Below, piece by piece: positions 16,320-50,225 of a DNA stretch of 64,000 nucleotides (position 1 is the first letter of the stretch; every line of letters starts with the position of its first letter). The stretch comes from Lysinibacillus sphaericus (lineage in GTDB: Bacteria > Bacillota > Bacilli > Bacillales_A > Planococcaceae), in NCBI RefSeq assembly GCF_006864135.1, contig NZ_SADV01000006.1, positions 124,001 to 188,000 on the forward strand, in the 5' to 3' direction. The translations under genes and the position numbers were made by a program. The notes beneath the pieces were generated by a model, which made no database searches, was not told the origin of the DNA, and saw only the letters and a list, made by a program, of their open reading frames with translations.

Positions 16320-16598
16320 AACAACACATTATTGTAGGCCAAGATTGGAAATAGTAGAAATGCAAGTGTACTTGTAGAGAGTCGGTGATTGGTGCAAACC
16401 GATAGGCACACATTTTGAACTCGTCCATGAGCCACTCCCTGAACTTTGAGTAAGGGACGTCGGTTTCCTCCGTTAACGGGATAGACAGTGACTGCTGTCG
16501 ATAAGGGGACTTTTTCTGTAAAGAGAAGGTCAATTAGAGTGGTACCGCGAGCATAAACTCGTCTCTATATTTTTATATAGAGGCGGGTTTTTTATTTT
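16320..16598 (+). ncRNA. T-box riboswitch (probably leucine) upstream of leuA
   Basis: The leader has the standard parts: an AGAGAGTCGGTGATTGGTG distal stem I region at 16376-16394, a specifier region TTTTGAACTCGTCCATGAGCC, the T-box AGAGTGGTACCGCG at 16536-16549, and a terminator (CGTCTCTATAT with ATATAGAGGCG, then six T) ending near 16596. The codon CTC at 16420-16422, followed by a purine, is the best specifier and means leucine, in agreement with the downstream leuA. An offset register would read TCG (serine), so the specifier is likely rather than certain. Confidence 0.88.
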
Positions 16599-20100: not shown

Positions 20101-20397
20101 AAAAACGCCCTAATCAAAATTGATTAGGACGAGTATACCCGTGTTACCACCTATATTTACAAATAGCTCACACTATTTGCCGCCATCAGTGCGTCTCATT
20201 CAAATTTTTAATGAGAGATACTGCCGCTGTTGTAACGAGTGCCCATCTCGTCGTAATCTACTTGCAAACTTGCTTTCGGTACGAAGCTCAAAGGTCATTT
20301 TCAAAAGGGGGCATTTACCTCATTTCCACCAACAGAGGCTCTCTATATAATGCTTATCCAATTTACTTTTCCTTATCAATGCTCTTACTATAGATTT
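20101..20397 (-). ncRNA. T-box riboswitch (methionine) upstream of the second metG
   Basis: Read on the minus strand the leader holds a stem I region, the specifier context GAAAATGACCTTTGAGC with ATG at 20298-20296, the T-box AGGTGGTAACACGGG, and a terminator CGTCCTAATC with GATTAGGGCG followed by seven T (20101-20133). The specifier ATG agrees with the downstream methionyl-tRNA synthetase. The T-box core is TGGTAACACG instead of TGGTACCGCG, a known variant. Confidence 0.9.
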
Positions 20398-22952: not shown

Positions 22953-23375
22953 TTAATCAAAAAACTCCATATGCATTTTTTCCTTCTTATAGTAATCCAT
23001 TCGGTCCTGTAAAGTCCCCGTATGAAATTCGAATTTATGGCCGTCTGGATCCGTGAAGTAAATTGATTTTTTATCTCGTACATCTCTTTGTCTGCCTTCC
23101 AGAATGTTGACATTATGATGTACTAGCTTTTCATACATTTTGTCAAAATCGGCCTCCTGGATAGAAAACGCTATATGTGTATAGGATTGATGTATGTCAT
23201 TGCGTGGGATATCCTGTTCTACATTCAGGGCAAGCCACAGCCCATTTACATCTAAATAGGCTGTACTTCTACCCTTCACTAATAATTTTGCGTCAAAAAC
23301 CTTTTCATAAAATGCGATGGATTTCTCTAAATTTGACACTGAAAATAATAAATGATTTATGTTTTGGATTGTCAT
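22953..23375 (-). CDS. fosB: Metallothiol transferase FosB
   Basis: A 140-residue VOC-fold enzyme that adds bacillithiol (or cysteine) to fosfomycin. The sequence follows FosB closely: [19 protein letters not shown] with the first metal His, [11 protein letters not shown] with the second, and [20 protein letters not shown] with the metal Glu. Residues [17 protein letters not shown] form the antibiotic pocket region. The length equals the family norm. Monocistronic. It implies a bacillithiol-making Bacillales host, in line with YfiT at 33414. Confidence 0.92.
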
Positions 23376-23413: not shown

Positions 23414-24490
23414 TTAATTTGATTTTTTGCCCTTCTTTAAGCCTTTCGCAATTTGCTTCGATTTGCGTTGCTCATTTAGCCTTGCTTGAGCATTTGTTTT
23501 GCGTTCGATAAAAGCAAGCTCTCTTTGCAATTTAAAGTAGCTTTGGAGACGTGATCGTTCAAGTACACCGTCTGTAATTGCTTGCTGTACAGCACAGTGT
23601 GGCTCCTTCTGATGTGTACAATCCCTGTAACGACAGGCCGCAGAAAGTTCCTCAATATCCTGAAAACTAGCGGATAAGCTATCACTCTGATCCCATAATT
23701 GTAGCTCCCGCATCCCAGGTGTATCAATTAAACAGCCGCCTTCTGGCAATAAAACTAACTCACGATGTGTTGTTGTATGGCGTCCCTTCGCATCATCTTC
23801 ACGAATACCTGAAACCTTCATAAGCTCCTCACAACTAAGAGCATTTGTCAATGTGGATTTCCCTGCGCCAGAAGAGCCAAGCAATGCGCCCGTCACACCT
23901 TCCGTAAATAGCGCACGAATATCTTCTAAGCCCTCACCTGACAGCGCACTAGTCACAAAAACATCTACACCAAACGCTACAGACTCAACCTCACGTATTT
24001 TACTAGCAACATCTTCACAAAGATCTGCCTTCGTCAATACAACGATCGGCTTAGCACCCGAATCCCACGCAGCTACTAAATAGCGTTCTAAACGACGAAT
24101 ATTAAAGTCTGCATTTAAGCTCATAACAAGAAGTACGATATCAACATTCGATGCTACAATCTGCTCTTGTATTTCCAGCCCCGCCGCCTTGCGGGAAAAG
24201 ACTGATTTTCGTGTAAACAATTTATGAATGATCGCCTTTTCCTCACCAGGCATTTTCTCGACTAGCACCCAATCTCCTACAGCGGGAAAATCTTCACGTG
24301 CTAATGATGTATAGGCGTAATGTCCAGCAATCGTTGCCAGCCACTCTCCTTCTTCAGCTAGTACACGATAGGAATGTTTATGCTCTAAAGTAACCCTAGC
24401 CGGCACACAATTCGCCAGCTTAGCCTCCTGCTTAAATCCAGTCATTTGCTCTTCAAAATATGGTAAAAATCCTAAAGTTGTTAAATTCAA
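23414..24490 (-). CDS. rsgA: RsgA-family circularly permuted GTPase (second paralogue type)
   Basis: A 358-residue GTPase of the RsgA/YjeQ family, which acts in late 30S ribosome assembly. An N-terminal OB-fold (about 30-100) precedes the permuted G domain, where VLTKADLCE (G4) comes before [17 protein letters not shown] (G1) and [11 protein letters not shown] (G3). A zinc site [14 protein letters not shown] follows and the tail is lysine-rich. It is longer than housekeeping RsgA (about 295) and resembles the longer second paralogue. Unusually, the gene has a 230-nt leader with a small peptide gene and a terminator, so its expression seems regulated by attenuation. Confidence 0.88.
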
Positions 24491-24544
24491 GTTGTTTTCC
24501 TCCTAAATGTGAATATCCTTTGTACTCAAATTGATACTAAACAC

Positions 24545-24584
24545 AAAAAACCTTGTCTCTGCGCAATTCGGCAGTTACAAGGTT
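24545..24584 (-). terminator. Attenuator terminator in the leader of the RsgA paralogue
   Basis: On the minus strand AACCTTGT pairs with ACAAGGTT and is followed by six T. The loop contains CCGAATTGC (24571-24563), which is perfectly complementary to GCAATTCGG inside the leader peptide gene (24691-24683). Pairing of the two would open the terminator. Confidence 0.75.
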
Positions 24585-24645
24585 CACAGGCACATTTAAG
24601 AGAATATACAAATTTCCACAATTGTCATTTAAATACACAGCGTGG

Positions 24646-24720
24646 TCAATTTATATATTTTAGGCGTGTGAAACTGAACAAACCGAATTGCAGCTCGTTA
24701 AAAACGGATCTATTCATCAT
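24646..24720 (-). CDS. Leader peptide of the RsgA paralogue
   Basis: A 24-codon frame, MMNRSVFNELQFGLFSFT followed by RLKYIN and TGA, with AGGTGATG 7 nt upstream of the first ATG. It is the first frame after a strong promoter (24754-24782). The codons for LQFG contain the antiterminator half GCAATTCGG. This layout is that of ribosome-stalling leader peptides that control antibiotic-response genes. Whether it is translated is inference. Confidence 0.55.
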   Translation of the reverse strand: MMNRSVFNELQFGLFSFTRLKYIN

Positions 24721-24753
24721 GTCACATCACCTACTTCCGATTTAGTTATTTCC

Positions 24754-24782
24754 AATATAGCGAAATATTCCGAAATTGTCAA
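24754..24782 (-). promoter_or_regulatory. Sigma-A promoter of the RsgA-paralogue leader
   Basis: On the minus strand TTGACA is followed after exactly 17 nt by TATATT. The start would be near 24747, 27 nt before the leader peptide ATG. Confidence 0.8.
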
Positions 24783-26537: not shown

Positions 26538-27731
26538 TTAATGCCATTCCCAATTGAACGGATCTTGTAAACCATCCCATGAGTTATTAAACTCATCTTC
26601 CGTTAATAAACACTTGTCTAGTTCTTTTATAATCGCCTCTTTATCTAAATCAACACCAATAATAACGAGCTGTGTCATGCGATCTCCAAATTCCTCATCC
26701 CAATCTTCTACTACCTCAGGACTTTGCAAGAAAACATCCTGCTGTTGTTCCTTTGGTAGAGCGGCTACCCAATAAGAAACTGGTTCTATTTTTGCCGATG
26801 AACCTGCCTGTGATAGTAATAATGCAACATTCTGATGTTTCGCACTCCAAATAATACCCTTTGCTCGGACAATAGATTCTGGCATATGATCACACCATTC
26901 TACAAATCGCATTGGATGAAATGGTCTTCTACGCTTATAAATGAAAGAAGAAATGCCATACTCCTCCGTTTCCGGTGTATGATTTTCATGACCAAGCTCT
27001 AATTCCTTTAACCAGCCAGCAGATTCTGATACCCGTTCAAAGTCAAAGCGTCCAGTATTTAAAATCTCAGCTGGCTCTATTACACCGTTTACTGTACGAA
27101 TTAGCTTGGCTTCAGGTTGTAATGCACGTAAAATACGTTCTAATCTTTCAAGCTCTTCATCTGATACTAAATCACATTTGTTTAATACAAGGACATCACA
27201 AAACTCGATTTGGTCAATGAGTAAGTCGGCAACATCCCTTTCATCTAACTCGCCGACTGCCTCCTTACGCTCTAAAAGACTTTCACCCGACTGAAAATCA
27301 TGCCAAAAACGATTCGCATCTACAACGGTCACCATCGTATCAAGTTGGCAAAACTTTGTTAAATCAATACCAAGCTCCTCATCTAAATAGCTAAATGTTT
27401 GAGCAACAGGTATTGGTTCGCTAATCCCCGTCGATTCAATTAAAATATAATCAATAGTACCGAGCCTTGCGAGACGCTCCACCTCCTGCAATAAATCCTC
27501 ACGTAGCGTGCAACAAATACAACCATTCGATAACTCCACAAATTTTTCCTCTGTTCGTGAAATGCCGCTTCCATTTGCAATTAGTTCTGCATCGATATTA
27601 ATTTCACTCATATCATTGACGATTACAGCAACACGCATATCTTTTTCATTTTGTAAAACATGATTCATCATTGTTGTCTTACCAGAACCTAAATAACCAC
27701 TTAACACTGTAACAGGGATTTTCTTTGTCAT
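26538..27731 (-). CDS. yciC: Zinc metallochaperone GTPase, COG0523 (YciC/ZigA)
   Basis: A 397-residue G3E GTPase. LSGYLGSGKTTMMNHVL is the Walker A region, GCICCTLREDL carries the CxCC metal motif of COG0523 proteins, ESTGISEP is the Walker-B-like segment and LNKCDLV the NKxD motif. The C-terminal CobW domain includes the RRRPFHPMRF segment. YciC-type proteins deliver zinc to client enzymes under starvation. Zur boxes of the Bacillus type lie in the 170-bp gap shared with a zinc-free rpmG, which supports the zinc role over cobalt or nitrile hydratase roles. Confidence 0.92.
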   Translation of the reverse strand: MTKKIPVTVLSGYLGSGKTTMMNHVLQNEKDMRVAVIVNDMSEINIDAELIANGSGISRTEEKFVELSNGCICCTLREDLLQEVERLARLGTIDYILIESTGISEPIPVAQTFSYLDEELGIDLTKFCQLDTMVTVVDANRFWHDFQSGESLLERKEAVGELDERDVADLLIDQIEFCDVLVLNKCDLVSDEELERLERILRALQPEAKLIRTVNGVIEPAEILNTGRFDFERVSESAGWLKELELGHENHTPETEEYGISSFIYKRRRPFHPMRFVEWCDHMPESIVRAKGIIWSAKHQNVALLLSQAGSSAKIEPVSYWVAALPKEQQQDVFLQSPEVVEDWDEEFGDRMTQLVIIGVDLDKEAIIKELDKCLLTEDEFNNSWDGLQDPFNWEWH

Positions 27732-38639: not shown

Positions 38640-38815
38640 TCAATTATTCCTCGGCATCATTGTAGCTGTCGCTGTGCTTTCGCTACAGATAAACAATGCG
38701 TCCGAAGGCTTTGGCCCAACACGATGTTGGTCACTCAGGCGTTTTCACAGGATGTGGAGTTCTTAGCCTGAGTTCCTCTTTTCAGCGGATGTTTGGACAT
38801 CCGATAAAAGAAGTT
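38640..38815 (+). repeat. Dispersed repeat, family B copy 4 (A/B mosaic)
   Basis: The ends are of family B: CAATTATTCCTCGGCATCAT at the left, and GAGTTCCTCTTTTCAGC with the hairpin CGGATGTTTGGACATCCG at the right. The middle holds modules of family A: GCTGTCGCTGTGCTTTCGCT and GGCCCAACACGATGTTGGTC. It lies between the binding-protein gene and its permeases. Confidence 0.75.
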
Positions 38816-45649: not shown

Positions 45650-45998
45650 GTTGATTTCCGTTCCGACTGGGCGCTTTGTTGCTGCCGCTTCGCTTTCGCA
45701 CAGAAAAAACATTTGTAGCTGTCGCTTTGCTTTCGCTACAGAAAACATTTGTAGCTGTCGCTTCGCTTTCGTAAAGAGCAAAGCTTCCTAGGGGCGTCCG
45801 ATGAGCCGCTTCACTCGCGTTGCTCGCTCCAGGGTCTCGGGCCAACAGATGTTTTTTTGCGCGAAAGCGTAGTGCCAACGAAGCGGCAGCAGCAGGATGT
45901 TGGTCACGAAGGCGTTATCACAGGACGTGATGTTTTTAGCCTTCGTTCCTCTATATCGCTAATCCCCAAGGAGTTGCCAAGCCTCCACTCCAATCAAC
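45650..45998 (+). repeat. Dispersed repeat, family A copy 2 (349 bp)
   Basis: The largest family A copy. Left end GTTGATTTCCGTTCCGACTG, right end CCTCCACTCCAATCAAC. The internal unit GCTGTCGCTTYGCTTTCG with ACAGAAAACATTTGTA is repeated three times, then come GGGGCGTCCGATGAGCCGCT, a CTCGGGCCAACA block and GAAGGCGTTATCACAGGACG. An inserted stretch with GCGAAAGCGTAGTGCCAACG separates the last two blocks. It fills most of the 660-bp gap before the sensor kinase; the last 200 bp (46000-46200) show no clear signal except a ribosome site. Confidence 0.85.
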
Positions 45999-49991: not shown

Positions 49992-50225
49992 GTTGATTGG
50001 AGTGGGGGCTGGGCGACTCCTTGGGGATTAGCCATATAGAGGCACGAAGGCTAAAAGCATCACGTCCTGTGATAACGCCTTCGTGACCCTGCAGCGAAGC
50101 GGAGCGGCTCATCGGACGCCCCCAGGAAGCTTCGCTCTGTGCGAAAGCGGAGCGACAGCTACAAATGTTTTCTGTGCGAAAGCGAAGCGACAGCAACAAA
50201 GCGCCCTGCCGGAACGGAAATCAAC
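49992..50225 (-). repeat. Dispersed repeat, family A copy 3 (inverted)
   Basis: In the opposite orientation to copies 1 and 2. The left end is GTTGATTGGAGTGGGGGCTG and the right end is GGAACGGAAATCAAC. It contains the reverse complements of the GGCGTTATCACAGGACGTGA, GGCGTCCGATGAGCCGCT and GCTGTCGCTTCGCTTTCGC modules, the last twice. It begins 53 bp behind the citrate transporter. Confidence 0.85.

Follow-up and report, generated by a model that had tools for sequence, protein, structure and literature searches.

Translational attenuators of the erm and cat type are a known class of leaders that carry arrest motifs. RsgA is a GTPase known for its part in the assembly and proofreading of the 30S ribosomal subunit. 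For vmlR of Bacillus subtilis it has been described that antibiotic-induced stalling on an upstream open reading frame (ORF) prevents formation of an anti-antiterminator, while a further hairpin partly closes the Shine-Dalgarno (SD) site (PMC9226507). In Listeria, hflXr (leader rli80) is a copy of a ribosome GTPase gene that is under attenuator control (PMC6310831), and the motif uORFC-6-1, which is found 5' of hflX mainly in Bacillales, carries an RLR peptide (PMC8632094). For Streptomyces coelicolor, a passage that deals with genes activated by WblC and with paralogues of these genes mentions the RsgA/EngC proteins SCO6149 and SCO5211 as a pair (PMC7157823). Deletion of rsgA in E. coli lowered the MIC of gentamicin (one of four mutants, 2- or 4-fold) and that of cefotaxime as well (PMC10295648). 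Both observations, made on other RsgA proteins, would agree with a function of this protein family in ribosome stress. The initial annotation of the locus studied here held that no leader of this kind is known for RsgA paralogues. This stands for the best-ranked matches in the open-licence full-text literature, among which there is no such leader for rsgA, but the Streptomyces pair is a precedent for drug-linked control of RsgA of another kind (PMC7157823).

Here we describe a leader in front of a second rsgA gene (the rsgA paralogue) of Lysinibacillus sphaericus. The locus lies on the minus strand of the window, that is, the whole stretch of 64,000 nucleotides that was analysed, and its parts are listed in Table 1. 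Very probably, a ribosome-mediated transcription attenuator of the vmlR and hflXr kind controls this RsgA-type GTPase, with a probable second layer on translation; it would act as a sensor of early arrest, and the induced paralogue would protect or reset small subunits. The initial annotation had read a promoter, a 24-codon ORF with a ribosome site, a terminator and the GTPase gene from the DNA, and the sequence bears out each of these parts at its place. In a promoter scan of the window sequence the promoter matches the consensus at 11 of 12 positions with a 17-base spacer. The leader ORF encodes the peptide MMNRSVFNELQFGLFSFTRLKYIN and is preceded by the ribosome site AGGTG at 24732-24728. 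By folding, the terminator hairpin has -16.5 kcal/mol, and the end of the terminator is 54 bases from the rsgA paralogue. The hairpin (24585-24548) is absent from the output of a generic terminator scan yet is recovered by folding; inner mismatches are probably the cause of the miss. The leader of 248 nt folds with a z of -4.95 and 0 of 200 shuffles are as stable. Its minimum-energy fold contains two hairpins, the first of them at the ORF start, as well as the terminator and a helix that closes the SD site of the GTPase gene. The region of the second hairpin is variable in length and very short in some relatives.

Table 1. Features of the rsgA paralogue locus, with positions in the window
Feature	Position	Strand	Details and basis
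SigA-type promoter	24754..24782	-	TTGACA - 17 - TATATT; -35 at 24782-24777, -10 at 24759-24754
Anti-antiterminator 5' arm, contains leader SD	24722..24733	-	folding, covariation, partner swap
Leader ORF, 24 codons + stop	24646..24720	-	ATG 24720, TGA 24648-24646; sequence
Antiterminator core 5' arm = leader codons 10-13	24683..24691	-	covariation, partner swap
Anti-antiterminator 3' arm = leader codons 17-20	24661..24671	-	folding, partner swap, covariation
Second hairpin, 3' of leader ORF	~24604..24660	-	folding, relatives; limits approximate
Segment CTCTTAAATGTG, can close the rsgA SD site	24591..24602	-	12-bp helix in minimum-energy fold; partner swap
Outer antiterminator segment TGTGAA	24583..24588	-	potential partner TTCACA 24672-24667; the weakest pairing of the four
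Intrinsic terminator	24545..24585	-	hairpin 24585-24548 and six-T run 24550-24545; folding
Antiterminator core 3' arm, inside terminator hairpin	24563..24571	-	covariation, partner swap
SD region of rsgA paralogue, CACATTTAGGAGG	24499..24511	-	sequence, folding, partner swap
rsgA paralogue (RsgA GTPase, 358 aa)	23414..24490	-	start TTG 24490; TIGR00157, PF03193
fosM-type fosfomycin resistance gene	22953..23375	-	NF038306 259.2 bits (cut-off 255); 38 nt 3' of rsgA paralogue

The product of the rsgA paralogue scores 174.5 bits with TIGR00157 (cut-off 100) and 178.8 bits with PF03193 (cut-off 30). Another RsgA protein is encoded in the same genome and shares 31-33% identity with it. We rejected the paralogue as the orthologue of housekeeping RsgA since the other copy in the genome scores higher with NF008931 (214 vs 175 bits). 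The RsgA GTPase domain is present, and its DTPG(M) and GxHTTTHR motifs are, like the Cys/His metal site, invariant in 23 aligned relatives, position x of the second motif being R, or K in one row of that alignment. Because these motifs and the metal site are invariant, the product is probably an active GTPase. The identity of the paralogue is 84-94% within the genus and mostly 55-75% within the family, with 48% in one genome (G072). With matches counted at E 1e-75 or better, 206 of 250 sampled genomes of the family and 71 of 398 genomes sampled across the phylum carry the gene.

Nine bases of the leader ORF had been claimed to be perfectly complementary to nine bases of the terminator, and GCAATTCGG (24691-24683) and CCGAATTGC (24571-24563) are indeed exact complements. 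The partner was placed in the terminator loop, but most relatives also use the 5' arm of the terminator stem in their predicted duplexes. As a finding on its own the match was rejected: perfect complements of at least 9 bases that are at least 40 nt apart are present in 61 of 500 dinucleotide shuffles of the window leader. The match is thus weak evidence in one sequence, and because it arises by chance in shuffles, comparative proof is needed. Its weight rests on conservation, namely the ORF and terminator in 67 of 67 distinct leaders, and on covariation. In a column alignment of 33 leaders out of 43 references, the 9-base antiterminator helix is 93.3% paired and has double changes at 7 of 9 pairs, with 37 double-change cells vs 9.3 in shuffles. 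The anti-antiterminator is paired in 87.5% of the cells of this alignment and has double changes at 5 of 11 pairs. A count of five double-changed pairs is not unusual (107 of 500 shuffles reach it), while the 31 double-change cells, vs 13.1 in shuffles, are reached by 0 of 500. Ten leaders judged too divergent (L065, L122, L124, L126, L127 and L130-L134) were omitted from the columns, and all of them are present in the partner-swap test as cluster members or representatives.

The partner-swap test paired each ORF with its own and with foreign terminators across 21 sequence clusters with 20000 permutations, which are not fully independent as the clusters are related to each other. For the antiterminator, own partners have -20.57 kcal/mol vs -12.45 kcal/mol for foreign ones (z -9.4, 0 of 20000 permutations). 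When the whole ORF is used, z is -10.6 and the own partner is among the best three for 18 of 21 clusters. The anti-antiterminator, in which the leader SD pairs with codons 15-22, has z -7.7, and the closure of the rsgA SD site has z -7.2 (0 of 20000 permutations). The outer antiterminator has z -4.3 (1 of 20000 permutations), and in it the leader of the window comes no higher than rank 11 of 21, with L065 at 15 and L131 at 20. Some clusters also fit poorly elsewhere, again by rank of 21: L065 (19), L131 (15), L122 (8) and L061 (7) for the antiterminator, L065 (20), L131 (20) and L134 (13) for the anti-antiterminator, and L126 (18), L066 (16), L061 (13) and L124 (13) for the SD closure. In L131 the fixed segment that was tested misses part of a longer ORF. 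The terminator and the antiterminator are mutually exclusive, with bases common to both and a pairing that covaries, and by covariation and swap the anti-antiterminator overlaps the leader ORF. Judged by these comparisons, the 9-base pairing is the core of an antiterminator that competes with an anti-antiterminator on the leader's own SD region. The idea of an attenuator with a leader ORF has strong support from covariation and from the ORF and terminator kept in 67 of 67 leaders, and sequence data could hardly make this attenuator more certain.

The leader is tied to this gene. By the first rule, a leader ORF and a terminator were found at 90 of 93 paralogue loci, and 67 of these leaders are distinct. 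Among the other three, the leader lies beyond the 420 nt taken in L119 and L120, while the start is misplaced in L142, whose genome has a model match. All 67 distinct leaders have an ORF of 21-29 codons (mostly 24), a terminator 3' of it (-12.4 to -31.5 kcal/mol) and, by a loose pattern, a promoter-like pair 5' of it. The peptides differ widely and begin with MMNRSVFNELQFGLF in Lysinibacillus and with MTNVYAIVNKRFGLS, MAKVEIAMKQSGRPG or MSNSIENVKMRMGMF in relatives. With a covariance model, the genome of the window yields a single copy (E 5e-28), the next match having E 1.8. In a sample of 32 genomes of the genus the paralogue is present in 30 and the leader in 30 of these 30, and the two genomes without the paralogue are also without the leader. 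A search of the family with this model gave 130 matches in 129 of 250 genomes: 124 directly 5' of the paralogue, 5 in paralogue-bearing genomes with position unlisted and 1 elsewhere. With its strict filters the model misses 77 of the 206 paralogue-bearing genomes of the family, and in some of those missed (L126, L130, L132) the leader is visible. Housekeeping rsgA genes of 20 genomes have a leader with ORF and terminator in 0 of 20 cases (short ORF in 4, terminator-like hairpin in 2, both in none; one control start, L164, is probably misplaced). An automatic scan for the whole class of this leader (type 1) covered 177 non-redundant loci of 213, leaving out 5 short-upstream loci and loci with N. 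It assigned 61 of 177 real vs 4 of 885 shuffled upstream regions, and of these 61 a small number from outside the family seem to be accidental (L203 and perhaps L236). Two single loci deserve mention. The one family match that lies elsewhere, at G025:C26 (L278:1020-1190), is a second copy of the leader, with the ORF MTNKLVNKFLPFSLSNFSHCLCTL and a terminator, and stands 5' of a remnant that by eye resembles a GNAT acetyltransferase. The Lysinibacillus plasmid pMGMM7 (L174) carries a paralogue whose leader is without the promoter side and the ORF and has kept the 3' half of the terminator.

Folding with a ribosome in place predicts which event the leader may read. An unpaired footprint (assumed to be -14 to +16) was set on each codon and the transcript up to the terminator was folded at equilibrium. 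Without a ribosome the mean terminator probability is 0.98, and it is below 0.5 in 0 of 67 leaders. With the P site on codons 1-6, the means over 21 clusters are 0.55, 0.58, 0.65, 0.74, 0.81 and 0.86, codon 1 being on average the most effective position; from codon 7 onward they are 0.97-1.00, with one of the 21 clusters below 0.5 at codon 22. Shuffled ORFs have a probability of 1.00 at each of the first five positions, and the minimum over codons 1-5 falls below 0.5 in 10 of 21 real clusters vs 0 of 105 ORF-shuffled ones. Leader by leader, the probability drops below 0.5 somewhere in codons 1-6 in 36 of 67 and never does in 31 of 67. The window's own leader does so at codon 5 only (0.15), with 0.69-0.96 at codons 1-4. 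This model makes it a good prediction that ribosomes held at the start or within the first few codons are what the leader senses. A loss of translation is not predicted to be detected, and a conserved peptide is predicted not to be required. According to the initial annotation, a stalled ribosome or its absence would decide which pairing forms. Folding retains the former, as read-through is predicted with a ribosome at codons 1-6, and not the latter, as the terminator dominates in 67 of 67 leaders without a ribosome.

Leaders of other types stand before the same gene. In some Clostridia (for instance L071, L072, L076, L081, L105) and some Bacilli (L135, L143, L147, L150) the leader is translational (type 2), with competition among a GGAGG-like stretch in the ORF, a CCTCC-like stretch and the SD site of rsgA. 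By a strict rule it is found at 34 of 177 non-redundant loci vs 3 of 3540 shuffles; this replaced a loose rule that was dropped, as it gave 68 of 177 real regions and also 78 of 885 shuffled ones. The strict rule leaves 33 type-2 loci that are not also of type 1; L097 was dropped for a wrong-frame ORF, and the ribosome test was run on the other 32. The rsgA SD is free with a probability of 0.53 for an early ribosome and 0.13 for a late one (0.21 and 0.15 with shuffled ORFs) and is intermediate at 0.43 without any ribosome. The gain in free SD exceeds 0.2 in 20 of 32 real vs 12 of 96 shuffled leaders. In this model both the transcriptional and the translational platform appear to turn the gene on when the ribosome is stuck early. 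A motif E[ISN](A)V near the ORF start occurs at 34 of 177 loci vs 4 of 3540 shuffles and on both platforms. Its Glu is at codons 3-8 (for example in L182, L189, L113 and L066) and is encoded by GAG in 33 of 34 cases, while the other codons vary; the motif may be either an arrest peptide or an RNA element. By eye, a third leader was noted at L075, L080, L083, L089, L096, L099 and L103, among others, with an ORF of four or five codons (MTVIR, MSVVR and others), a long-range complement and a terminator. A tie between the five-codon leader and plasmid resistance genes was considered and dropped, the leader of L083 having no plasmid match. Neither automatic class holds 83 of the 177 loci; among these some have a leader by eye (Listeria L172, Brevibacillus L173) and others are without one.

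Put together, the folding predictions suggest the following mechanism. When the leader carries no ribosome, or one that has moved beyond codon 6, codons 10-20 would be blocked either by the anti-antiterminator or by that ribosome, the terminator would form and the rsgA paralogue would be off. A ribosome held at the start or within the first six codons would cover the SD arm of the leader and free codons 10-20, so that the antiterminator would form and polymerase would read through. An inhibitor of initiation or of the first peptide bonds may hold the ribosome at these early codons. The leader would thus be an early-arrest sensor that depends little on the peptide, and the segment at 24591..24602 that can close the rsgA SD site is a probable second layer, on translation. 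The induced RsgA paralogue may then protect or reset small subunits during early-arrest stress. The initial annotation inferred that this GTPase responds to ribosome-targeting stress; the data are consistent with this, and ribosome-targeting drugs would induce the gene.

Four other explanations were weighed against this drug-responsive, early-arrest attenuator. The most serious of them, though still unlikely, keeps the same RNA switch and lets it read the status of 30S subunits or of initiation (assembly defects, growth phase, alarmones) in place of antibiotics, so that cells short of working subunits would make more RsgA. In its favour, the 30S subunit is the established site of action of RsgA, codon 1 is on average the position at which a ribosome or initiation complex has most effect in the scan, and a gene found in 206 of 250 sampled genomes of the family is unlike a typical acquired resistance gene. 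However, such a leader is found at 0 of 20 housekeeping rsgA genes, the relatives of this architecture described in the literature (vmlR, hflXr) answer to drugs, and the Streptomyces RsgA pair is named among WblC-activated genes and paralogues (PMC7157823).

It is quite improbable that the switch answers to a ligand, a protein or a tRNA and that the small ORF has no part in it. Riboswitches and T-boxes also use terminator/antiterminator pairs and there are two T-boxes elsewhere in the window, but no described RNA family (Rfam), be it T-box or riboswitch, matches at the window leader or at 15 loci. An ORF with a ribosome site is kept by all 67 distinct leaders, and the ORF and the early-ribosome window are common to two unlike RNA outputs. 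Classical amino-acid attenuation, in which a run of codons would stall the ribosome at an uncharged tRNA, is highly improbable. Codons 1-6, which are decisive in the folding scan, precede the four Phe codons of the window peptide that might suggest it, and Bhargavaea peptides have a single Phe, at the end. Some residue occurs twice in codons 2-8 in 16 of 21 clusters, but one residue occurs three times there in only 1 of 21, at each of codons 2-9 even the commonest residue is found in at most 10 of 21 clusters, and the target gene is not biosynthetic. We rejected this explanation because residue counts over codons 2-9 in the 21 clusters show no common codon run. That an ordinary terminator stands beside a chance ORF without any regulation has a probability close to negligible: the covariation and partner-swap tests and the frequency of the whole class (61 of 177 real vs 4 of 885 shuffled regions) oppose it, whatever room is left by the 9-base match in 61 of 500 shuffles.

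Downstream, fosM adjoins the paralogue in 16 of the 17 named loci with an identity of 80% or more vs 0 of 22 loci of 55-80%, and the two genes are presumably on one transcript in Lysinibacillus. As fosM begins 38 nt behind the rsgA paralogue, the leader would govern fosM too in Lysinibacillus if no other promoter does. Co-transcription of rsgA and fosM would tie ribosome stress to a cell-wall drug. The window also contains four Bacillaceae-1 RNAs (38716-38782, 45889-45955, 2133-2195 and 50035-50091), two T-boxes (16332-16569 on the plus and 20122-20388 on the minus strand) and a gene for a CobW-type GTPase close to ZigA in type (26538-27731, minus strand) that scores 518.8 bits with NF038288, below the cut-off of 600.

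A widespread second RsgA under an early-arrest sensor points to an unrecognised protective or rescue role. The leader could also offer an inexpensive way to detect compounds that act by arresting initiation or early elongation. We tentatively extend the early-arrest reading to the whole branch, as a possibility that deserves attention short of conviction: for the small subunit, this RsgA branch may be what corresponds to HflXr, a GTPase made only under stress that would release 30S subunits stuck at initiation or at the first codons, or re-qualify them. In many Bacillota it would be wired to leaders that read that arrest, with the output platform swapped between transcription and translation and with the input window and, in part, E[ISN](A)V kept.

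The closest described system is comparable in its parts. As described for vmlR, the ORF lies in a first hairpin that is the anti-antiterminator, followed by a middle hairpin, the terminator and a hairpin partly closing the SD, and stalling favours the antiterminator (PMC9226507). The target there is an ABC-F protein whereas here it is an RsgA GTPase, and the vmlR ORF is given as MIN whereas the ORF here has about 24 codons (PMC9226507). NusG pausing and a lincomycin response were shown for vmlR (PMC9226507). The leaders reported for hflXr and hflX are likewise small-ORF attenuators that control a ribosome-associated GTPase, and hflXr is a second copy of a housekeeping gene (PMC6310831, PMC8632094). 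They differ in their RLR motif, which for hflXr lies in an ORF of 14 amino acids, while no RLR is conserved here (PMC6310831, PMC8632094). The GTPase studied here differs from theirs in being of the 30S type. The type-2 leaders of the paralogue, in which an ORF segment, an anti-SD and the SD are in competition, resemble erm and cat attenuators; they have another target gene and E[ISN](A)V instead of the arrest motifs of that class. In the WblC/WhiB7 system a WblC-activated gene also differs from its paralogue in the RsgA pair SCO6149/SCO5211, but it is a transcription factor that acts there and a cis RNA leader here (PMC7157823). The kind of switch is known, while its target, the RsgA paralogue, is widely shared and was not expected.
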